Below are positions 15,497 to 26,800 of a stretch of DNA of 40,305 nt, piece after piece. The translations under genes and the position numbers were made by a program. The notes under the pieces were generated by a model. The model was given only the letters and a program-made list of their open reading frames with translations, was not told the origin of the DNA and did no database searches. Origin of the DNA: Gemmatimonadota bacterium (GTDB taxonomy: Bacteria > Latescibacterota > UBA2968 > UBA8231); contig PATE01000085.1 of assembly GCA_002712305.1 (NCBI GenBank), positions 1-40,305 on the forward strand. The letters run 5' to 3'. Each line of letters begins with the position of its first letter. Position 1 is the stretch's first letter.

Positions 15497-16420
15497 TTAC
15501 CCGATACGTTTCCGACGAACCAGATAGTGGCTCAAAGCATGGTCGAACGGGGTGGAGGTGTCGAACAGCGCGTAGTCGATTCCCGCTTCGGCACACCCTG
15601 TTGAATAGCGGTGGATGAGGGCCTCCATCTGCGCCTGATAGGCCTCCTGAATGTGCCACGGTTGTGTCGTGATGTCGGCGTCTGCATCCTCGAGATCGAC
15701 GAAGCGCGTGTCATTGCGGCGGAAGTCGAGGTCCCGTTCGCGGGGATCGAGAATCTGCATCGCCACAACCTCGTGTCCACGATGTCGGAAATGACGCAGA
15801 CCCGACAGGACCTGTTCCGGGTCGTCGAGCATATCGGACAACAGAATCACCAATCCGCGACGTGATAGACGTTCGGCCAGATCGTGGAAAGCGGGTGCCA
15901 TCTGCGACTTGGTGTTCGGCTCGGCCTTCGTCAACTCCAGAAGGAGCGTCTGCAGGTGGCTGCGAACCGAACGCGGTCTCACGAACCGAGTGACCCGATC
16001 ATCGACCAGGGCAAGTCCAACCGCGTCACGCTGGCGCAGCATGAGCAGACTCAAGGCGGCTGCCAGACAGGTGGCGTAGCGAAACTTCGTCAGCCGGCCA
16101 TCCTCGCCGAAACTCATGGACCCACTGATATCGACGATCAGGTAGGCGCGCAGATTCGTCTCTTCCTCGTATTGCTTGACGTAGAGTCGGTCCGTCTTGC
16201 CGAGAGCTTTCCAGTCAAGATTGCGCAGCGAGTCGCCGGGCATGTAGGGACGGTGCTCGGAAAACTCGACCGAGAAACCATGATAGGGCGAGCGATGCAG
16301 GCCCGTGATAAAACCTTCCACCACACGCCGAGCGACCAGGTCGAGGCGACCCAGACTCGAGGCGAAATCCGGCGACAGATAGTCGGTCAAACTCGGCGGA
16401 TTGGGTTGGGATTCGCTCAT
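15497..16420 (-). CDS. DUF58 / von Willebrand A-like domain protein
   Basis: This 307-residue protein has the DUF58 core motif HRPYMPGDSLRNLDWKALG, then TDRLYVKQYEEETN (residues 57-89), and a MIDAS-like metal site DISGS starting at Asp97. No membrane segment is evident, so it is probably cytoplasmic. DUF58 proteins are regular partners of MoxR ATPases. The start overlaps the moxR stop by four bases, confirming the pair. It is the last gene of the long minus-strand chain; no convincing terminator was found behind it before the suf promoter. Confidence 0.9.
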   Translation of the reverse strand: MSESQPNPPSLTDYLSPDFASSLGRLDLVARRVVEGFITGLHRSPYHGFSVEFSEHRPYMPGDSLRNLDWKALGKTDRLYVKQYEEETNLRAYLIVDISGSMSFGEDGRLTKFRYATCLAAALSLLMLRQRDAVGLALVDDRVTRFVRPRSVRSHLQTLLLELTKAEPNTKSQMAPAFHDLAERLSRRGLVILLSDMLDDPEQVLSGLRHFRHRGHEVVAMQILDPRERDLDFRRNDTRFVDLEDADADITTQPWHIQEAYQAQMEALIHRYSTGCAEAGIDYALFDTSTPFDHALSHYLVRRKRIG

Positions 16421-17415
16421 GCGCTGTCGGGTTGGATGTCCTCGAGCAAACGACGGGCGATGTCGTCCGCATTCGTACTCTGGGCTTCGGCATGGAAGTT
16501 GACGACGATACGGTGACGCAACACGGGCAATGCCATGGCATCAATGTCCTGCTGGCTGACGGCGTGACGCCCATCGAGTGCCGCTCGAGCCTTGGCTGCG
16601 AGGGCCAGGTATTGAGAGGCTCGAGGACCGGCGCCCCAGTTCACCATCTCGCGCACGTAATCTGGCGCCACCTCGTCTGCCGGACGTGAGGCTCGTGCCA
16701 GTCGCACCGCATACCGGATCAGGTGATCGGCGATGGGGACCTGGCGCACGAGTCGCTGAAATGCGATGATCCGCTCGCCATCGAGCACCGATTCGACCGG
16801 CTCCTGGTCGAGGGCCGTCGTGGTGCGCACGATCTGTTCCTCTTCGGCGATAGACGGATAGTCGATACGCAGTTCGAAGAGAAAACGGTCCAGCTGGGCT
16901 TCTGGCAGGGGATAGGTTCCCTCTTGCTCGATGGGATTCTGCGTGGCCAGAACGAAGAAGGGCTCTGGCAACTTCATCGTTTGTCCAGACGCCGTCACCG
17001 CATGTTCCTGCATCGCCTCCAGCAGGGCAGCCTGCGTCTTGGGTGGGGTACGGTTGATCTCGTCAGCCAGGATGATGTTGGCGAAGATCGGCCCCTGGAC
17101 AAATCGGAAGACTTTGTGCCCCGTCTGCGGATCCTCCTCCAGAACATCCGTGCCGGTAATGTCTGAGGGCATCAGATCGGGTGTGAACTGAATACGCCCA
17201 TACTGAAGGTCAAGGGCCTGTGCCAAGGTGCGGATGAGCAGTGTCTTGGCCAGGCCCGGCACGCCAACCAGCAGGCAGTGACCTCCTGCGAGCAACGCGA
17301 TCAGCAGGCTTTCCACGATCTGCCTCTGGCCGATGATGACACGCGAGATCTGTTCTTCGAGAGTCTGACGCGCTCGCTGGAGTTCGGCGACGGCGTCGAC
17401 GTCCGACTGCGTCAT
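16417..17415 (-). CDS. MoxR family AAA+ ATPase
   Basis: The 332-residue protein has Walker A GVPGLAKT (residues 51-58), Walker B IILADEINR, and the MoxR-typical NRTPPKTQAALLEAMQE and PLPEAQLDRFLF blocks. MoxR ATPases act as chaperones or assembly factors, usually with vWA/DUF58 partners. The client here is unknown. It starts 9 bases after the preceding secreted-protein gene and overlaps the DUF58 gene. Confidence 0.95.
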   Translation of the reverse strand: MTQSDVDAVAELQRARQTLEEQISRVIIGQRQIVESLLIALLAGGHCLLVGVPGLAKTLLIRTLAQALDLQYGRIQFTPDLMPSDITGTDVLEEDPQTGHKVFRFVQGPIFANIILADEINRTPPKTQAALLEAMQEHAVTASGQTMKLPEPFFVLATQNPIEQEGTYPLPEAQLDRFLFELRIDYPSIAEEEQIVRTTTALDQEPVESVLDGERIIAFQRLVRQVPIADHLIRYAVRLARASRPADEVAPDYVREMVNWGAGPRASQYLALAAKARAALDGRHAVSQQDIDAMALPVLRHRIVVNFHAEAQSTNADDIARRLLEDIQPDSA

Positions 17416-17424
17416 GGAGATTCC

Positions 17425-18690
17425 TTAGGTCTTACGCGGCTTCTTCTTTGCCGCGGGAAACAAAACGTTGTTGAGGATCAGCCGATATCCCGGCGAGTTC
17501 GGAAACAGGGAGAGCTGGGTTGCAGGGTCACCTACGTGGTGCTTGTGGTCTTCGGGATCGTGTCCGCCATAGAAGGTAAACGTACCGCGCCCAACCTGTC
17601 CGTGGATGTATTTGACGGCGTCCGTGTCCTCTTCTTCGGCCAGACGCACCACGGCATCCTTGATCAAGTGTCTCTTGAAGGCCGTTGTCTGACCGAGAAA
17701 ACCATTCACCACATTGGTATGGCATTGCGTCAGCATGGTCGGCACGGGATCGTGTTTGGCGGAAAACTCGAACAGAGTGAAGTACTCAGCTTCTGCCGAA
17801 CGAATTCGTCGCACATCTCTCGGTGTCGTATCCACGTCAGAGTGTTCGTAGACCATGGGGTGGGTCTCGAGGCGGAATCCCTCGAAGGCGACGGTTCGGC
17901 TGTAGTCGAGCATCTGCTGAGCACCGTGGGCAGGCGGATCACCATCAAAAGGCGTCGCCACGATATCTACGTCGCCGGCAGCCAGCGCGATGTCGAAGGT
18001 ATCGGTGGCAGAGCACATGGCAAAGAGGAACCCTCCACCGGCGACGTAGTCATAGATCCGCTGGGCCACGGCATGTTTCATCTGCCACACCTTGGTGAAA
18101 CCGAGGCGAGCCGCATCGGCTTCGTAGAGACGCTGCTGGTCACGATACCAGGCGTCGTTACGAAAGCTGGCGTAGAATTTTCCATACTGCCCCGTGAAGT
18201 CCTCATGATGCAGATGGATCCAGTCGTACTCGCTCAGCTTGCCACTCAAGACATCTTCGTCCCAGAGTTTTTCGTAATCGATGGACGCGTACTCCAGCGC
18301 CATGGTCACCGCGTCATCCCACGGCTGCGAGTTGGGTGGTGTATACACCGCAATGCGTGGGGATTTCTCGAGGCGCACCACATCCATGTTGGCCGCATCG
18401 ATCTCGGCGTAGACGGAAGCCATGTTTGCCTCGTCGATTCTCTGATAGGAGACGCCCCGCAACTGCGCCTCGCGAGCGATGAGATCGATGGCATCGACGG
18501 AAAACGCTCCACCGCGATAGTTGAGAAGCCATTCGACGGTGACCTCGTGCTCAAGAATCCAAAAGGCCAACCCGTAGGCCTTCAGATGGTTCGTCTGTTG
18601 GAGATCCATGGGAATCAGCAGTCGCTCGGCGCTGACTGGCGCAACCAGGCCGACCATCACAACTGCCACCCACAGTGTCTTACGTACCAT
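17425..18690 (-). CDS. Secreted protein of unknown function, possible class I amidotransferase-like fold
   Basis: The 421-residue product has a cleavable signal peptide (residues 1-21, ending PVSA). The mature part opens with ERLLIPMDLQQTNHLKAYGLA. Relatives I recall in Bacteroidota sometimes carry the label asparagine synthetase B, but no ATP pyrophosphatase or N-terminal amidotransferase motif is visible, so that name is not adopted. The motif VAGGGFLFAMCSATDTFD (216-233) resembles a nucleophile elbow with Cys226, and a His-rich FYGGHDPEDHKHH follows near the C-terminus. Export and operon position suggest a role with the DUF4159 and DUF4175 proteins. ATG 18690 overlaps the TPR gene stop by one base; a TTG directly before it is less likely. 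Confidence 0.6.
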   Translation of the reverse strand: MVRKTLWVAVVMVGLVAPVSAERLLIPMDLQQTNHLKAYGLAFWILEHEVTVEWLLNYRGGAFSVDAIDLIAREAQLRGVSYQRIDEANMASVYAEIDAANMDVVRLEKSPRIAVYTPPNSQPWDDAVTMALEYASIDYEKLWDEDVLSGKLSEYDWIHLHHEDFTGQYGKFYASFRNDAWYRDQQRLYEADAARLGFTKVWQMKHAVAQRIYDYVAGGGFLFAMCSATDTFDIALAAGDVDIVATPFDGDPPAHGAQQMLDYSRTVAFEGFRLETHPMVYEHSDVDTTPRDVRRIRSAEAEYFTLFEFSAKHDPVPTMLTQCHTNVVNGFLGQTTAFKRHLIKDAVVRLAEEEDTDAVKYIHGQVGRGTFTFYGGHDPEDHKHHVGDPATQLSLFPNSPGYRLILNNVLFPAAKKKPRKT

Positions 18691-20390
18691 CAACCCTGCT
18701 CCAATTGAAGCTGCAGTCGCTGTAACTCAGTCAATGCGATGGGTACCCGTGGATCGTCCGGCCACTGCAGCAGCAGCCTCTGCAGCCGATCGATCGCCTC
18801 GACCACCCGGCCTTCTACAGACTGGAGGCGAGTCAGGGCCAACGTGGCGGTGAAGCGGATGTCGCCGCCGACCTGTTGGTGGGACAGAATCTGCTCATAT
18901 AGGACCATGGCGGCAGCAGGTTCGTCCATCTCGAGCCCTCGAGCTGCCGTGATTCGAAGTCGATGGGCCAGGTCGGAAAAACCGTCCTGCTCCAGGTTCT
19001 TCCAGATGGCTGTCGCTTGATCCAACCGCCCCTGTCGCAGCCGCAGCCGTCCTGTGGCAAACTGCTGCAGGGCGTCGGGTGACTCGATATGTGCGTCGAA
19101 CAGTCTCAGCCACAGAAGGGCGTCGTTGGCCTGTGCCGTTTCAGGTTTCGTGGTGACGAGACTGTCCGCGTAGGGGCGCCCTAGTTCCACAGTGCCCTCG
19201 AGTACGGCCAGTTCGGTGAACCCTACAGATGCGACGGCGAATCCTGCGGGAGACTGGGCCAGACGCTCGAGGGTGTTGCGAACGACCTGCAGATCATCCC
19301 GTTGCCAGCCACTCTCAGCGAGCAGCTCCAGCGCCTGGAGACGCTCGCGCTCACTCAGGTCGAGGGAGATCGCGAGTCGCTGGAGGATGTCCTGGCTCTG
19401 CTGCGCCTGGTGGGTGGACAGCAGCAGGTCCGCCAGTTCGAGCTCGAAGGCAGCTGCATCCGATGGGCGAGCGGCGGCGCTGACCAGTTGGCGGTAGAGT
19501 GTGATCGCACCCTCCAGGTCGCCACGCCGAGTGTGCATTCTGGCACGCCGATGCAGCGAGGTGGTGCTGAAACTCGGATCCCCGGTGATCTGCGCCAACA
19601 GGCGATACGTACGCGACACGGTCTGCTGATACCCCAATCGTTCACTGCGCTGAGCAAACTGAATCAGGCCATCGGTGACCACGTCGACATGCGGGCCAAG
19701 CCCCCGTTGGTTCAGTTTTGCCAGGACGATGAACCCCTTCTTCGGTTGCCCCGAAGCCAGCAGTGCATGAGCGAGCAACAGAGACTCAGATGGCTCAATC
19801 TGCCGGTCGTTTGTCGCTTGAAGGGGTGTGATGTATCGCTCCCACCGATCTCGACTTGCTTCGCCATCCTGATCCTGCAAGGCCATCACGTCGAACAGTC
19901 CCAGGATCTGAAGGAGACGATGAGGTTCGAACTGCACCAATTGCCGATGGACGCGCACCGCATCACGGGGATTGCCGGTTTCCAGATAGAGCTCTCCCAG
20001 ATCCCAGAGGAAAGGACGTTCGTCGTCGAGTTTCTCAACGCCTTCGATCAGCAAGTCGAGGGCCTCCTGAGACCGTCCCAGACGGCGGATCCGGCGGGCC
20101 ACGTTCACATAGTGATCGGGCCGCGGATCAACCTGTGAGATCATGTGTCGCCATTGGACGATCGCTGCCTCGACTTCTCCTTTGTGCGCGAGCAGATCAC
20201 CCAGACTCAGGCCGATGGCGGCGTCGTTGGGATGGGTTTCCAGAAAGCGACGAATCAAGCTCTCGGCGCCGGCCAGATCACCCGCACGGCGTCGTTCGGC
20301 CGCTTCGCGCATGACCGTGCTGCGATCCTGCGCTTGAAGCATTGCCGCACACAGAAGCAGCATGAGGAGAAGGTGAGAGGTACGCCTCAA
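18690..20390 (-). CDS. Exported tetratricopeptide-repeat protein
   Basis: The product has 566 residues. A signal peptide (MRRTSHLLLMLLLCAAMLQA) supports the unusual TTG start at 20390, which also overlaps the DUF4175 stop by four bases. The mature protein is almost wholly alpha-helical with degenerate TPR units, for example GDLAGAESLIRRFLETHPND, NPRDAVRVHRQLVQFEP, and DLEGAITLYRQLVSAA. TPR arrays bind other proteins, so this is probably a periplasmic adaptor for the surrounding cassette. The partner cannot be named from sequence. Confidence 0.8.
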   Translation of the reverse strand: MRRTSHLLLMLLLCAAMLQAQDRSTVMREAAERRRAGDLAGAESLIRRFLETHPNDAAIGLSLGDLLAHKGEVEAAIVQWRHMISQVDPRPDHYVNVARRIRRLGRSQEALDLLIEGVEKLDDERPFLWDLGELYLETGNPRDAVRVHRQLVQFEPHRLLQILGLFDVMALQDQDGEASRDRWERYITPLQATNDRQIEPSESLLLAHALLASGQPKKGFIVLAKLNQRGLGPHVDVVTDGLIQFAQRSERLGYQQTVSRTYRLLAQITGDPSFSTTSLHRRARMHTRRGDLEGAITLYRQLVSAAARPSDAAAFELELADLLLSTHQAQQSQDILQRLAISLDLSERERLQALELLAESGWQRDDLQVVRNTLERLAQSPAGFAVASVGFTELAVLEGTVELGRPYADSLVTTKPETAQANDALLWLRLFDAHIESPDALQQFATGRLRLRQGRLDQATAIWKNLEQDGFSDLAHRLRITAARGLEMDEPAAAMVLYEQILSHQQVGGDIRFTATLALTRLQSVEGRVVEAIDRLQRLLLQWPDDPRVPIALTELQRLQLQLEQG

Positions 20391-23300
20391 GGTTGTTCAG
20401 CCTCGGGTTGAGTCAGGTCGGAATAGACCGTCTCATAGTAGCGCCGAACGAGACGGCGATAGCCGGCAGGATAGTCACCGGAGAGCGCCTCACCCATGGC
20501 CTGTCGCCAGCGATCAGGTGTCTGTCCAAGGTTCTCGGGCAACCAGCTCGGGCCATCCATCGCATGTTGTGTGGCGACCTGAGAGCGTCGCTTTTTCTCG
20601 AATCCACGGGCATGGATCGAACGACTGGCATCGAGCATACGCTGCAGGATTCGCTGCTGCCGCTGCGGCAGATTCTGATTCGGACGCCGCTGCTCCAGTT
20701 GCTGGAGGACGTCGCCCATCTCTTTCTGGATCTGTCCCACGCGCTCCTGCAGTGAACGCTGGCCGCGTAACCCACGCTCCAACTCCGACAGGGCCTGGTA
20801 GATCCGTCGCTGCTCTGCGGCAAGGCGAGAGATCATCTCCTCCTGACCCCCACGGCCCTGCTGCCCCTGCTGCCGGCCTTGCTGTTGCAGGGCTTGTTGC
20901 GTCGCCTCGTTGAGAGCGGCCTGCTGTTGGGACAATCCCATCATGCGCTCCATGGCTTCGGCAAAGCCGGACGGCATCTGCGATTGGGCAAGATCCTTGG
21001 CCGATTCACGCAGCATGAGAACGGCCTCGTTGAGGCGACGCATGGCTTCGTTCTGCAGTTCGAGTGCACGATGTCGCTCCTTCTGACTCAGATGCCCCGC
21101 CGCCCCCTCAGCATTCTGCAATGCGTAACCGAGTGTCGTCGGCAGGCCTGGGTGCAACGACATCGTCTGCCGTCCGATCTCGGCGAGGGCCATAATCGAT
21201 CGGCGAAGACTGGATCCCAGCGCAAACTGTCGTGGAGCTTCGAGCAATGCCCGGGGGCTGTCGAGGGTGTCGATCTGTCGGCGCAATCGTTCCTGCCTGA
21301 ATGACAATTGGAGAAGATCGGCGGCGATCTCCCGAATGGCCCCCATCAGGTTTTCCCGCTGTCCGGCGGAGAACTCGCCCTGGAGTTCCTGCATCGCCTC
21401 AGACAGCCGCCCCAGATCCTCCTCCAGCCCCTCGCCCTGGCGGCGGGCCATCTGCGACTCACCTGCATCGAGCTGCTGCTCCATCATCCGCATTCGCTCA
21501 TTCAGCTTTGCCTGCTCCATCATCTGGGACTGTGCCTTGAGTCCCTGTGATGTGGGCGGATGGATCTGATCCATCTCCTCAGCGAGTTCATCCAGCTCTT
21601 GCTGCAGTTGATCGGTATCGGCCGCCAGACGGCCTTCTTGATCCGCCAATCGCTGCGCATCTGAAGGATCTCCCGCATCGAGACTCTCGTCGATCTGCTG
21701 CTGACGCTCTTCGAGATCCTGAGCCTGCTCGGTGGCGGCCATCAGTCGCTGTTCGGCGTGAATCTGCTGCAGAAGCGAGATCGTCCGGTCGAGGCGCTCC
21801 TTGAAGCTCTGCTGATCCTGTTGGAACTCGCGAAGTGCTTCGGCCAACTCCTGAGGATTGAGTTCTCCCTGCGCTGCTTGCTGCAAAGCCTCGAGGGCTT
21901 CCTGCATCTCGGGCGAGGCAACGGCCGCCATCAACTCACGAATCTGCTCCATCTTGTCGAGTAGCTGATCCGACCCCAGGCCACTCTTCTCGAGTTGGTC
22001 CATGGTCTCGGCCATCTCGCGGGCCAACTCCTGTACGGCTTCGGCTCGTTCAGAAGCAGCCTCCAGAGCTGCATCGAGCTCCTTTTTCTCCTGCCAGCTC
22101 AGATCGTCTGTCTTGAGGACCTCGCGACGCAGCTGTTCGACGATGTCGTGTGCGTCCTGCTCTTGCTCGGCGATCTCTTCCAGGGTTTCCAACTGCTGCT
22201 TCTGCTCGATGGACACCTCATCGAACAATTCGTAGAGCGAGGGGAAACGCAAGGTGTAGGCCGAGCTGAGTCCCTTCTTCGGACCACCTACCGCATCGTT
22301 GTCGAAGGCCTCGGCGTGATACGTCACGCGATCTTCGGGCAGCAACTGATGGGGCGTCAGATCCCAGATGTGATGGAGGGAGATACGCGGTTCAGCGGGC
22401 GAGTCGAGACGAGTACGCAAAGGGGGGCCGTCATTGATCTGATACACCAGGTCGATTCGGCCAATTCCGAAATCGTCCATCGCCTCAATCCCAAGAGCCA
22501 CCTGCTGCGATTCGGGCAGGTCGGCGTCGTGACCCGGGTTGACGATGTTCACCACCGGAACCTCGTCGTCAAGAATGTCGATGGCGTAGCGGATCGGCTC
22601 GCGGTTTTCGATCCCGTCGATGTCGGTGAGGTGAATGTGATACTGGTGACGGCGGGCGTCGTGAGTCATCACGGCAGGAAGGACCCAGTCCACCACGGCG
22701 GCACGATCGACGATCTGTGCCGGGATCCTCACCAAGTCGTCGATGACCATTTCGGCCGTGCCAAGTCTCTTGTTCGACGACGCTTCGAGACGGACTGCGG
22801 TACCTGCCAGAGCGCGCAGATCTCCACCTTCCTCCTCAACGCGAGCAGGCAATCCGCTGTAGTCAGGATACTCGAAGGACAACCTGAGGCCCGTCACGAC
22901 GGGAGGATCGATGACCTTCACCGTGTGCAGCAGGGTTTCGCCATCGCCGGCAAAGCCCTGCACCTCAAAAGACTGTCTCACGTCATCCCAGGCGAAACGT
23001 GCATTCGCCCGAATGTCGCCTGAGGCCTCGGTGCCAGACTCCTCTGCAGATGCTTCAGAGACCCGCTCCTCCACGAGCAGTTCCTCCTCCAGCCAGGCCG
23101 TTTCTCCCACATAGCGGTGACGCAGCGTGGCCGTCGTCGGGATGTCGCCGGAGATGGCGAGGTGAAGGTCAAGATCGTCACCTGCCACGACGACGCCCGT
23201 GGCCATCTCGAGTGTGACATGCGTCTGCTGGGGGGGGCTGAAGGCAAGCGTGGGGTGGGCCCAGCGATGGGCGATGCCCGCGGCACCATCCGGGAAGCGG

Positions 23301-23800
23301 GATCCCAGAATGACGGTGATCACAAGGGCTGCGGCGGCAGCCCAAAAGGCAAAACGAGGCCGCCTTCGAGAGGCGATCTGCTCGGGTGATGTCTCCAGCA
23401 GTGACTGCAGCGCTTCGTCACGAGTGATCGCCAGAAGTGCTTCTGAACAGGGGGCGCTGTCGTCCAGTTCGAGGGCCGTGATCAATCGCTGACGCAGCGA
23501 CGGAACACGCTTCTCGACATACAGCGCCATGGAGTGCGTGTCGTGTACTCCCTTGAGCCCAACCCGCAATACGCCACCGGCCACGATCACGGCCCCCAGC
23601 ACGACGAGTCCGGGAGGTACGAGACGTACGATGGGCGGCAGATAGGCGATGGCTTCGACGCCAGCAGCGAGCCACCCTCCCACCATCAGTCCACCGAATG
23701 CCCACAGCAGGGCACGTGCGGACTCGATGGCCACGAATCGAACGCGCAATCGTCGCAGACGGTGATGGATCTGGGGCAGGGGCATCTGATCAGGTGTCAT
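20387..23800 (-). CDS. Large DUF4175-type membrane protein with Gln-rich coiled coil
   Basis: The 1137-residue product has three predicted membrane segments (about residues 28-52, 58-78 and 150-167). A beta-rich, Ig-like region follows to about residue 510 (for example SFEYPDYSGLPARVEEEG), then a very long Gln/Glu-rich coiled coil (about 515-1060). The C-terminal block DYPAGYRRLVRRYYE is typical of DUF4175 proteins. Topology suggests a membrane-anchored periplasmic rod or scaffold. It is the largest member of the DUF4159-to-DUF58 cassette. ATG 23800 follows the DUF4159 gene by 33 bases. Biochemical function is unknown. Confidence 0.85.
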   Translation of the reverse strand: MTPDQMPLPQIHHRLRRLRVRFVAIESARALLWAFGGLMVGGWLAAGVEAIAYLPPIVRLVPPGLVVLGAVIVAGGVLRVGLKGVHDTHSMALYVEKRVPSLRQRLITALELDDSAPCSEALLAITRDEALQSLLETSPEQIASRRRPRFAFWAAAAALVITVILGSRFPDGAAGIAHRWAHPTLAFSPPQQTHVTLEMATGVVVAGDDLDLHLAISGDIPTTATLRHRYVGETAWLEEELLVEERVSEASAEESGTEASGDIRANARFAWDDVRQSFEVQGFAGDGETLLHTVKVIDPPVVTGLRLSFEYPDYSGLPARVEEEGGDLRALAGTAVRLEASSNKRLGTAEMVIDDLVRIPAQIVDRAAVVDWVLPAVMTHDARRHQYHIHLTDIDGIENREPIRYAIDILDDEVPVVNIVNPGHDADLPESQQVALGIEAMDDFGIGRIDLVYQINDGPPLRTRLDSPAEPRISLHHIWDLTPHQLLPEDRVTYHAEAFDNDAVGGPKKGLSSAYTLRFPSLYELFDEVSIEQKQQLETLEEIAEQEQDAHDIVEQLRREVLKTDDLSWQEKKELDAALEAASERAEAVQELAREMAETMDQLEKSGLGSDQLLDKMEQIRELMAAVASPEMQEALEALQQAAQGELNPQELAEALREFQQDQQSFKERLDRTISLLQQIHAEQRLMAATEQAQDLEERQQQIDESLDAGDPSDAQRLADQEGRLAADTDQLQQELDELAEEMDQIHPPTSQGLKAQSQMMEQAKLNERMRMMEQQLDAGESQMARRQGEGLEEDLGRLSEAMQELQGEFSAGQRENLMGAIREIAADLLQLSFRQERLRRQIDTLDSPRALLEAPRQFALGSSLRRSIMALAEIGRQTMSLHPGLPTTLGYALQNAEGAAGHLSQKERHRALELQNEAMRRLNEAVLMLRESAKDLAQSQMPSGFAEAMERMMGLSQQQAALNEATQQALQQQGRQQGQQGRGGQEEMISRLAAEQRRIYQALSELERGLRGQRSLQERVGQIQKEMGDVLQQLEQRRPNQNLPQRQQRILQRMLDASRSIHARGFEKKRRSQVATQHAMDGPSWLPENLGQTPDRWRQAMGEALSGDYPAGYRRLVRRYYETVYSDLTQPEAEQP

Positions 23801-23833
23801 TCCAACACTTCGTCTGCCGAATCAATGTGCCAA

Positions 23834-24529
23834 TCAATGTGTCAGGGCCCACACGACGATGTTCGTGCCCATCTGCAGTGCAGCCACGCGTGAGGGCTCA
23901 GGGTCATTGTGAATGTGAGCATCTTCCCAACCATCGCCCAGATCGGCCTCGAACGTGTAGAGGACGACGATCCTGTCTTCCTCGAACAAGGCCAGTGCCT
24001 GGGGACGCTGGCCGTCGTGTTCGTGGATCTTTGGCAGACCATGGGCGAATTCGAAGTGACAATTGAACAGACCGTGGTCGGCCGGCAACTCGACGAAGTC
24101 CTTGCTCGGGTAGACCCGTTTCATCTCGCGGCGGAAAGACTCATCCATGCCGTAGTTGTCGTCTGCGTGAAGAAACCCACCCGCATCTAGATAGTGACGC
24201 AGCCGGTCAACCTGTGGTTCGGAAAGACGGACATTGCCGTGTCCCGTCAGATACAGATAGGGATGGGAGAACAGATCCTCGTCGTCGAGATGGACGCGCG
24301 CCGGTTCCTTGGCCATGACGATCGTCGTGTGCTCCGTCAGAAAAGCCATCAGATTTGGCAGGGAAGAGGGGTCACTGTACCAGTCACCGCCGCCATCATA
24401 TTGAACACGGGCGATGGAGAAGCCTCTTGTGTGGTCCTGGGTCTGAGCCTCAGCGGCCGGACAGATCGCGAAGTCCAGCATCCCACAAATCGCACAGGCC
24501 ACGATCAGGCTGCGGACGATCATCGACAT
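23834..24529 (-). CDS. DUF4159 domain protein, exported
   Basis: The 231-residue product has a signal peptide (MSMIVRSLIVACAICGMLD, continuing to AEAQ) and the DUF4159 signature ARVQYDGGGDWYSDPSSLPN at the start of the mature part. YLYLTGHGN and YLDAGGFLHADDNYGMD follow, a Rossmann-like arrangement related to class I amidotransferases but without an obvious catalytic cysteine. A GTG at 24562 would add 11 residues; ATG 24529 gives a better signal peptide and is preferred. DUF4159 genes commonly travel with MoxR, DUF58 and DUF4175 genes, as here. The molecular role is unknown. Confidence 0.85.
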   Translation of the reverse strand: MSMIVRSLIVACAICGMLDFAICPAAEAQTQDHTRGFSIARVQYDGGGDWYSDPSSLPNLMAFLTEHTTIVMAKEPARVHLDDEDLFSHPYLYLTGHGNVRLSEPQVDRLRHYLDAGGFLHADDNYGMDESFRREMKRVYPSKDFVELPADHGLFNCHFEFAHGLPKIHEHDGQRPQALALFEEDRIVVLYTFEADLGDGWEDAHIHNDPEPSRVAALQMGTNIVVWALTH

Positions 24530-24565
24530 GGCGAGAGTCCATCTATCACAGGCAGGACTCACGAT

Positions 24566-26800
24566 TCACGGGTTGCTTCCATCGATCACGGCAAAGCGTC
24601 CCCGTACGGGCGACGATGACGGAGCCTGTGCGGCGTAGAGGTAAATCCCGGATCCTACGAGGAATCCCGCATCGTTGAGACCATTCCAACTCACCGAACC
24701 TCGTCCGATGCCAGCATCGAGAGAGGTAACCAGCTCTCCCTGAAGCGTGTAGATCTGCAAGGTCGCACCGAGGGGCAGGCCTGAGAAGGTTAGTCGGTCT
24801 CGCCCGTCCGTGACGAAGGGATTCGGAAACACGCCACTGCTGGCGATAGGATTGCCACCATCGACCGGGGCTGTACCAAGTCGCAATCGATTGAGGCCAT
24901 CGAACGTGCCGATCCAGAGTTCGTTCGAGTCTTCATCAAACAAGAGTCCCGTCACTCGATCATTGATCAGTCCCGAGTTGGTCGACGTCAAGGTGAAGGC
25001 CACCTCGCCATCGTCAATTCGACTTAGGCCTGAACCTGTGGCCACCCACAAGTGTCCGTCACCGTCCAATTCGAGCGCGTTGATCTCATCGGAGGGGAGT
25101 CCGTCGAGGGTGTTGTACACACGCCAGCTGTCTACATCAAATCGTCCGGCCGTGCGATCGTAGGAACCCTGGATGGCATTGAGCCCACTATCGGTAGCGA
25201 GCCACAACACGCCATCTTTGTCTTCGATGAGATCGAAGGCTCGATTGCTGGACAGCCTCGTCTCGGCGGCAGTATTCACCACGACGATCTGGTCATCACC
25301 GCCGGTGAATGGAGTGCCGCCATCGTCGAGAATGACCAGACCGTCCGTGCGACTGGCCACCCACTTGTGGCCGGCCTGGGCCAACCCAATGCGGTACAGA
25401 TCCAGCCGGGAAGGCTGACCAAGGGCCACCTGATCGAAGAGATAACCCTGCGTCTGTGGATAGCCGTCGATGACGGCGATGCCCACGGCAACATTGACGA
25501 CCCAGAGGTTCCCCTGGGCGTCTCGCTGAACATCACCGACGGCAACAAAGTCTTCATTTGGGCCGATCCCGCGCAGAACCGAATTCTGCTCGTCCAGTTC
25601 GACCCACTGATTTCCATCGAGGATCGCAACGCCGCCGCCCCAGCTGCCAATCCAGACCCGATCCTCACGATCGGTCTCGATGGCCACCAGTTCGTCATTT
25701 GGCATCCCCGTCGACTTGTCGAACACCGTCCACGACCCTTCGTGGAGTTGATAGACGCCGGCGGAGAGCGAACGCTGCTGATCGTCGGGAACGCTCGCTG
25801 CCCAGAGATCCCCATCGACAATGCGCAGATCATAGAATCTGCTGGAACCAGGCTCACCGGCGGGGGCCGGCGCCTCGGCTCCGAGCACCCGCAGCCCCGT
25901 CCCCGTGGCCAGCCAGACGGAGCCATCGTCGATCGTAGAGACCGCTCGTACGTTGTTGATCACCGGCGCACCCATGCGTCGCCAGATCTGTACACCAAGG
26001 CGTCGCATGAAATTGCCGTCCGCCGTGGCGGCCAACGTCAAACCATTCACGCGCCCCAGCCCGACGACGACCTCTTCATTGTAGTCGAGAGAAAACTGGT
26101 CTGTGATGGGGTCGTATGTGAACACGCCCAAGGCTGTGGCGGCCGACACGGTACCATCGTTTACCACCAGATCTCTCACATTCCCCAGATTTCTTACCGA
26201 GTTCCAGCTGTCCGGATCCTGCAGGTTCGGCTGGGACAGACTCGCCCATGCCAGTCCCTCAGATGTCCCCACAAACAGGAGCTCATCGTGAACGGCCAGG
26301 GCATGAACGGCAGCGTCCTTAGAGATCAAGCCCAATCGACGATAGCTCTCCTTCACCTCCTGTTTATCAAGCAGGAAGACACTGACACCACGATCGGTGC
26401 CGACAAACAAACGATCGTTGTGAGGCCGGAGTGTCAGAATGTCCCGATCGCGAAACTCGAGAAAGGGCGGATCAAAGTGAGATGCGCCCGCCCGCATGCG
26501 ACTCAATCCATTGGCTGCCGTCCCCACCCAAAGATCGCCCACGTCGTCTAGGGTCACCGAAAGCAACTGATTGCCGCCAAGGCCATCGAGGCGTGTAAAC
26601 CGACGATAGGTCTGGGTCGACCGATCGTAGTGCAACGCCCCGCCCCCCGTCGCCAGCCACACATCATCACCACGCGCAACCACGTCATTCGCCTGGGTCA
26701 TGCTCGTAAATGCAGCCCACTCTGAGTCGACGACCAGCTGGGCCGACAGTGAACAGGCCAGTCCCAATAACAGGAAGAGGGTGATATGCAGTGGTCTCAT
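24566..26800 (-). CDS. Exported beta-propeller protein with FlgD/Por-like C-terminal domain (PorZ-like)
   Basis: The 744-residue product has a signal peptide (MRPLHITLFLLLGLACSLSA). About a dozen two-component-regulator-type propeller blades follow, such as DLWVGTAANGLSRM, RVWIGSWGGGVAILDG, LWLATDSGLNAIQG and ELWIGTFDGLNRL. The last 90 residues form a FlgD-like Ig domain ending in GSGIYLYAAQA, the kind used as a sorting domain in type IX secretion lineages. The architecture is like PorZ of the type IX system, though many FCB propeller proteins look similar. It lies between priA (15 bases) and the DUF4159 gene (36 bases). No kinase domain is attached. Confidence 0.75.
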   Translation of the reverse strand: MRPLHITLFLLLGLACSLSAQLVVDSEWAAFTSMTQANDVVARGDDVWLATGGGALHYDRSTQTYRRFTRLDGLGGNQLLSVTLDDVGDLWVGTAANGLSRMRAGASHFDPPFLEFRDRDILTLRPHNDRLFVGTDRGVSVFLLDKQEVKESYRRLGLISKDAAVHALAVHDELLFVGTSEGLAWASLSQPNLQDPDSWNSVRNLGNVRDLVVNDGTVSAATALGVFTYDPITDQFSLDYNEEVVVGLGRVNGLTLAATADGNFMRRLGVQIWRRMGAPVINNVRAVSTIDDGSVWLATGTGLRVLGAEAPAPAGEPGSSRFYDLRIVDGDLWAASVPDDQQRSLSAGVYQLHEGSWTVFDKSTGMPNDELVAIETDREDRVWIGSWGGGVAILDGNQWVELDEQNSVLRGIGPNEDFVAVGDVQRDAQGNLWVVNVAVGIAVIDGYPQTQGYLFDQVALGQPSRLDLYRIGLAQAGHKWVASRTDGLVILDDGGTPFTGGDDQIVVVNTAAETRLSSNRAFDLIEDKDGVLWLATDSGLNAIQGSYDRTAGRFDVDSWRVYNTLDGLPSDEINALELDGDGHLWVATGSGLSRIDDGEVAFTLTSTNSGLINDRVTGLLFDEDSNELWIGTFDGLNRLRLGTAPVDGGNPIASSGVFPNPFVTDGRDRLTFSGLPLGATLQIYTLQGELVTSLDAGIGRGSVSWNGLNDAGFLVGSGIYLYAAQAPSSSPVRGRFAVIDGSNP

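Follow-up and report, generated by a model that had tools for sequence, protein, structure and literature searches.

The question raised by this locus is whether six tightly packed genes in a metagenome-assembled genome (MAG) of Latescibacterota encode one cell envelope machine and, if so, which of them form its core. The window, that is, the whole stretch of 40,305 nucleotides that was analysed (contig PATE01000085.1 of assembly GCA_002712305.1), carries on its minus strand, in the order of reading, genes for an exported DUF4159 protein of 242 amino acids (23834-24562), a DUF4175-like inner membrane protein of 1137 amino acids (20387-23800), an exported tetratricopeptide repeat (TPR) protein of 566 amino acids (18690-20390), a further exported protein of 422 amino acids (17425-18693), a MoxR AAA+ ATPase of 332 amino acids (16417-17415) and a DUF58 protein of 307 amino acids that is von Willebrand factor A (vWA)-like and free of transmembrane (TM) segments (15497-16420). 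We refer to the 422-residue exported protein as SecX, to the DUF4175-like protein as D4175 and to the DUF58 protein as being of the cassette type. Our answer is that SecX, D4175 and cassette-type DUF58 very probably cooperate in the cell envelope of bacteria of the Fibrobacterota-Chlorobiota-Bacteroidota (FCB) group, the other three proteins being best read as partners that vary with the lineage.

All six open reading frames (ORFs) of the run described in an earlier note on this DNA were confirmed, with no gap exceeding 33 bases: the DUF4159 and D4175 genes are 33 bases apart, D4175 and TPR genes overlap by four bases as do those for TPR and SecX, a nine-base gap separates SecX from MoxR, and MoxR and DUF58 again overlap by four bases. 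The arrangement is not a chance one, since the order recurs in 30 or more loci of other genomes.

Joint inheritance of SecX, D4175 and DUF58 in Bacteroidota

The genes are dispersed in Bacteroidota, where SecX comes after dnaB (eight loci), D4175 occupies a separate neighbourhood with no DUF4159, SecX or MoxR gene alongside, and cassette-type DUF58 stands alone without a MoxR neighbour. Because adjacency fails in this phylum, co-inheritance was examined instead, in 118 evenly drawn Bacteroidota genomes (95% completeness requested) that were surveyed for SecX, D4175, cassette-type DUF58, DUF58 proteins overall and PorU, the sortase of the type IX secretion system (T9SS). SecX was found in 83 of the 118 genomes (worst E 2e-174) and D4175 in the identical 83 (worst E 6e-90); the remaining 35 had no match to either protein at 1e-20, and not one of the 118 carried only one of the two. 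The profile for cassette-type DUF58 detected 82 genomes at E 1e-50 or better, all of them inside the SecX set. As controls, DUF58 proteins overall were present in 110 of the 118 genomes, so that it is the cassette type and not the whole family that tracks SecX, and PorU was also present in 83 genomes but was discordant with SecX in 12.

When an rpoB tree was built for 80 of the genomes, namely the 35 without the genes and 45 with them, the absences fell into six clades, one of 26 genomes, one of three, two of two and two single, with support of 0.98-1.0 for the multi-member loss clades and all three genes missing in every loss clade. There have thus been six independent losses, each removing SecX, D4175 and cassette-type DUF58 jointly. 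None of 100,000 simulations of independent losses on the same tree reproduced the observed pattern, whichever of two weightings was applied; the nearest was four tips off. A single deletion cannot explain the joint losses since the genes are unlinked in Bacteroidota, lying far apart in genomes that consist of a single large contig (at 1.56, 0.75 and 2.92 Mb in G114, for instance). The link between SecX, D4175 and cassette-type DUF58 is therefore well supported, and the proposal of the earlier note that envelope-associated proteins of this locus work together is supported for these three, which are inherited as a block.

Conserved gene order in FCB phyla

Twenty relatives and 80 named loci, most of the latter from other FCB genomes, were compared for their gene neighbourhoods. 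Within Latescibacterota, nearly every genome has SecX and D4175, mostly as single copies; they were found in 54 and 56, respectively, of 60 related genomes. Among 50 genomes with SecX that belong to other FCB phyla and Bacteroidota, 47 also have D4175. Records named KSB1, Neomarinimicrobiota, Eisenbacteria, Gemmatimonadetes and others show the same D4159-D4175-TPR-SecX order. D4175 lies upstream of SecX in 19 loci outside Latescibacterota; a TPR gene, weakly conserved in sequence, holds position -1 to SecX in 35 surveyed loci of several phyla; and the DUF4159 gene adjoins that of D4175 not only in Latescibacterota but also in eight or more loci from genomes of the Ignavibacteria/Kapabacteria type. 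A MoxR gene, usually together with one for DUF58, comes directly after SecX in 16 loci of Latescibacterota, and none of 13 loci from other phyla whose downstream sequence extends for 3.6 kb or more has it there.

The conserved operon is thus D4159-D4175-TPR-SecX and not the six-gene cassette, and MoxR, DUF4159 and TPR proteins are best regarded as lineage-dependent partners. The earlier view of a cassette built around MoxR and DUF58 is, as far as MoxR is concerned, wrong outside Latescibacterota, since the MoxR-DUF58 placement was seen only there and the DUF58 gene of Bacteroidota is solitary. Scattering of the genes in relatives had been named in the same note as an outcome that would refute one machine. 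The genes do scatter in Bacteroidota, but for SecX, D4175 and DUF58 this scatter is overridden by their co-inheritance.

Several other features of these neighbourhoods deserve mention. In several Ignavibacteria, clpX sits between the TPR gene and secX (L076, L101, L112, L114, L121, L130). In one ignavibacterial genome (G073; L206 5723-12404), D4175 is immediately preceded by genes for a MoxR protein and for one of 703 residues that matches no Pfam family, an independent case of MoxR linked to D4175. Other genes found next to SecX in other phyla (UPF0047, FAA hydrolase and GNAT downstream; ClpX and DnaB upstream) were considered as partners and set aside as housekeeping genes that follow no consistent pattern. 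Seven more DUF4159 paralogues are encoded in the window's genome, in other contexts that contain no MoxR, SecX or D4175 gene. SecX was not found on plasmids.

Predicted fold and putative active site of SecX

The window protein shares 52-69% identity with 66 SecX sequences from across the FCB phyla; its closest named relative comes from record JAJEIO010000049.1 (Candidatus Latescibacterota). No match above chance was obtained in Pfam, NCBIfam or the sequences of the PDB; Bacteroidota members presumably bear the name "asparagine synthetase B" in RefSeq. The predicted structure of SecX (pLDDT 87.7, pTM 0.88) places residues 110-418 among chains resembling class I glutamine amidotransferases (GATases), with Foldseek E values down to 5e-8 and VIA Z scores of 10-12.6 to GATase-like domains of GH42 enzymes, ThuA-like proteins, homoserine O-succinyltransferase (HTS) and PdxT; the absence of a family from these fold matches was not counted as negative evidence. 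SecX is accordingly predicted to adopt a class I GATase/ThuA-like fold (Z about 12 over 180-226 residues), from whose known members it differs in being exported, in sharing only about 10-17% identity with them and in having an extra N-terminal alpha/beta part.

In the model, Cys227 lies between a strand (222-226) and a helix (228-239), and the motif GHDPED (377-382) follows the strand formed by residues 370-375. Cys227, His378, Asp379, Glu381 and Asp382 are invariant in 67 of 67 SecX sequences from many phyla, as is Gly377. The nucleophile of GATases usually sits at such an elbow, after a strand and before a helix, and these enzymes carry His and Glu in the region that matches SecX 377-382; their spacing is H-x-E in class I GATases, compared with H-x-x-E in SecX. 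The predicted fold, together with the invariant Cys and His/Glu residues, suggests a thiol hydrolase or amidase with a substrate in the envelope. The C-terminus of SecX is a basic tail that hardly varies (K..KKxRKT in many members), an unusual feature for an exported protein.

Other proteins of the cassette and flanking genes

D4175 was characterized by hydropathy, an AlphaFold2 model, Foldseek and a family alignment. The window protein alone scores 16.3 bits against DUF4175 (PF13779), below the cut-off of 27.3; in a cross-phylum full-length alignment, 16 of 16 members match this family at E<=0.01 (best 2.4e-28). Hydropathy reveals three hydrophobic segments near the N-terminus, and the model a beta region resembling immunoglobulin (Ig) domains at about 194-518 followed by a helical coil some 550 residues long (about 522-1079), for which Foldseek returned generic Ig and long-helix matches only. 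Together with the hydrophobic export signals of the DUF4159, TPR and SecX proteins, this agrees with the topology first proposed for the locus.

The DUF4159 protein belongs to its family with a wide margin (PF13709, 225 bits against a cut-off of 25.9), has a sequence relative in the PDB (4i66, Hoch_4089; E=4.9e-19) and carries no transmembrane anchor besides its signal. Position 24529, where the earlier note had ended the cassette, corresponds to an ATG at codon 12 of this ORF and is a plausible start given the signal peptide. Comparison of the SecX and DUF4159 profiles yielded a match of 16 columns at the strand YV.GGFLFA (E 2.4e-4, probability 44%), and DUF4159 has an Asp at the position of the SecX Cys; the match suggests, and does not prove, a fold common to both proteins, and DUF4159 is probably GATase-like. 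The TPR protein was recognized by Pfam TPR families. The MoxR protein is a member of its family by AAA_3 (212.9 bits) and AAA_lid_2 (64.4 bits), by its Walker A (GVPGLAKT) and Walker B (ILADEIN) motifs and by the vWA-type gene that it adjoins. The DUF58 protein is likewise a clear family member (PF01882, 166.9 bits against a cut-off of 23.4), in which the DxSGS metal-site motif (D97, S99, S101) and D196 are invariant across the cassette-type alignment.

Three bases upstream of the DUF4159 gene lies a gene for a PorZ-like protein with two propellers and a C-terminal domain of the FlgD/T9SS type (24566-26800, minus strand; 182 bits to NF052228, below the cut-off of 260), beyond which is priA; sufBCDS begins 253 bases downstream of DUF58. 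A scan of the locus for promoters and terminators performed no better than on shuffled sequence, and one for RNA families and tRNAs found none. Elsewhere in the window's genome (G000 contig C57; L140 3-5604), there is another PorZ-like gene, which overlaps one of the PorU type; a DUF4159 paralogue is encoded some 2.6 kb beyond.

Alternative explanations

The PorZ-like neighbour raises the possibility that the module supports the T9SS, with SecX, D4175 and DUF58 serving the export or surface attachment of its cargo. The Latescibacterota family of the window is indeed rich in this system, as judged from the window's genome, which encodes two PorU sortases of full length and numerous C-terminal domains of the T9SS, and PorU and SecX are correlated in the Bacteroidota sample (both in 77 genomes, either one alone in six each, neither in 29). 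The discordance runs in both directions, so the proteins do not sort with the T9SS: the clades G183/G218, G121/G202 and G140/G222 have kept the secretion system without the module, and G106, G187, G206, G168, G215 and G188 the module without the secretion system. The PorZ-like neighbour is moreover no part of the conserved module and is confined to the window's own family, being present in three of four sampled loci there (f1) and not in f3, f4 or f6. On the strength of the discordant PorU genomes, we rejected a T9SS link through this neighbour as the main explanation and consider it very improbable. A second account, by which the three genes have no functional link and are core FCB genes lost together upon streamlining or envelope change so that their distribution reflects shared ecology and not one machine, would fit the fact that most of the lacking genomes form the clade of 26, which are mostly small, and that D4175 and SecX are near-universal elsewhere. 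It leaves aside the five further losses in unrelated lineages, which include genomes of 3.9-5.1 Mb (G111, G140, G121, G183), the strict pairing of SecX with D4175, and the different patterns followed by the T9SS and generic DUF58. We deem it unlikely.

Another alternative concerns what SecX does. SecX and DUF4159 could be non-catalytic GATase-like domains, akin to GIFT domains, which would retain a polymer or a lipid at the D4175 scaffold, the Cys of SecX being structural or metal-binding. The lack of the Cys in DUF4159 would agree with this, as would the presence of GIFT and DUF4350 domains in the other MoxR-DUF58 operon of the window's genome and the prominence, among the best fold matches of SecX, of ThuA-like proteins and GH42 GATase-like domains, which are not known as amidotransferases. 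The invariance of Cys227, His378, Asp379, Glu381 and Asp382 exceeds, on the other hand, what would be expected of a mere binding fold, and we look upon a purely binding role as rather unlikely.

Proposed module

In the reading that we prefer, D4175, SecX and cassette-type DUF58 form the core of one FCB envelope module. D4175 would serve as its inner membrane scaffold, anchored by three TM segments, with the Ig-like domains and the long coil reaching into the periplasm, where the exported SecX may act on an envelope substrate as a thiol hydrolase or amidase. The DUF58 protein, vWA-like and presumably cytosolic, would meet the cytosolic face of D4175 and, together with the MoxR ATPase, assemble or remodel the complex, MoxR being encoded next door in Latescibacterota and supplied from elsewhere in other phyla. 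DUF4159, with its probable GATase-like fold devoid of the Cys, and the TPR protein would be accessory exported partners. Gene order, family membership, joint inheritance and predicted folds are what the analysis shows; the physical contacts, the cytosolic remodelling, the catalysis by SecX and the role in envelope maintenance are what we infer beyond them, and the core with this mechanism as a whole appears to us about evenly balanced between right and wrong.

A number of observations weigh against it. SecX and D4175 are on different contigs in one Latescibacterota family (f7; G049, G053), and several D4175-bearing genomes of that phylum lack SecX, two of them MAGs of 95-97% completeness; some of the Latescibacterota MAGs without SecX or D4175 perhaps owe the gap to incompleteness. 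One Bacteroidota genome (G211) has SecX and D4175 and yielded no cassette-type DUF58. The overall shape of D4175 is uncertain because of the low pTM of its model (0.42; pLDDT 78.6), though the model is fair locally. Deletion of bat in Leptospira, a related MoxR-type cluster, left growth and morphology unaffected (PMC3557215). Within the mechanism, the part given to the ATPase is the weakest, since MoxR is not adjacent to cassette-type DUF58 outside Latescibacterota. The bolder proposal that SecX represents a hitherto unrecognised family, one of thiol amidases or hydrolases of GATase fold in the periplasm, and forms with D4175 and DUF58 an envelope machine characteristic of FCB bacteria and independent of the T9SS, is tentative and, in our estimate, on the doubtful side; if true, it would make MoxR-DUF58 ATPase modules the energy-providing partners of a periplasmic enzyme.

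Comparison with known systems

MoxR-vWA pairs also occur in conflict systems (VMAP, iSTAND, bpMoxR; PMC7159879). The six proteins include no such effector or third component, the window MoxR scores 213 bits with AAA_3 against 50 bits with bpMoxR, and SecX and D4175, mostly present once per genome, are found almost throughout the phylum; the locus was thus not assigned to these systems. A likeness is offered by RavA-ViaA of E. coli, in which a cytosolic MoxR-type AAA+ protein and a soluble vWA partner act on membrane complexes (PMC3893208, PMC10585395), and it is by the example of such pairs that we would have DUF58, with MoxR, work from the cytosol. The RavA-ViaA pair differs in having no DUF58, in targeting respiratory enzymes and in being described, in the abstracts, without periplasmic partners.

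The Bacteroides aerotolerance (Bat) operon (MoxR, DUF58, BatA-E) resembles the cassette in combining MoxR, DUF58 and exported or TPR proteins. Neither the six genes nor their neighbours encode a vWA membrane protein of the BatA/BatB type, which sets the locus apart from Bat/Cmd operons, and the losses of SecX do not extend to the non-cassette type of DUF58. A MoxR-DUF58 operon elsewhere in the window's genome (G000 contig C130:1-12000; L155) encodes a BatA-vWA protein, DUF4340 and a GldG/ABC_transp_aux protein (DUF4350, GIFT, DUF7088); GATase-like domains, here of the GIFT kind, seem to be recurrent companions of MoxR-DUF58. The Rhizobium leguminosarum operon RL3499-RL3502 (CmdA-D) shares with the cassette a MoxR protein (of the MRP subfamily) accompanied by DUF58, vWA and transmembrane proteins, and the accounts of it in the citing papers mention no SecX, D4175 or TPR array. 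According to these citing papers the operon is needed for morphology and envelope integrity (PMC5118466, PMC5700661, PMC3893208), and by analogy with it the role of our module is probably envelope maintenance. Few bacterial modules that still lack an assigned function are as widespread as MoxR-DUF58 clusters; one variant now has partners defined by inheritance, namely a giant membrane scaffold, a family-less exported protein and one type of DUF58, which turns a vague neighbourhood into a complex that can be tested in tractable Bacteroidota hosts such as Flavobacterium and Pedobacter.

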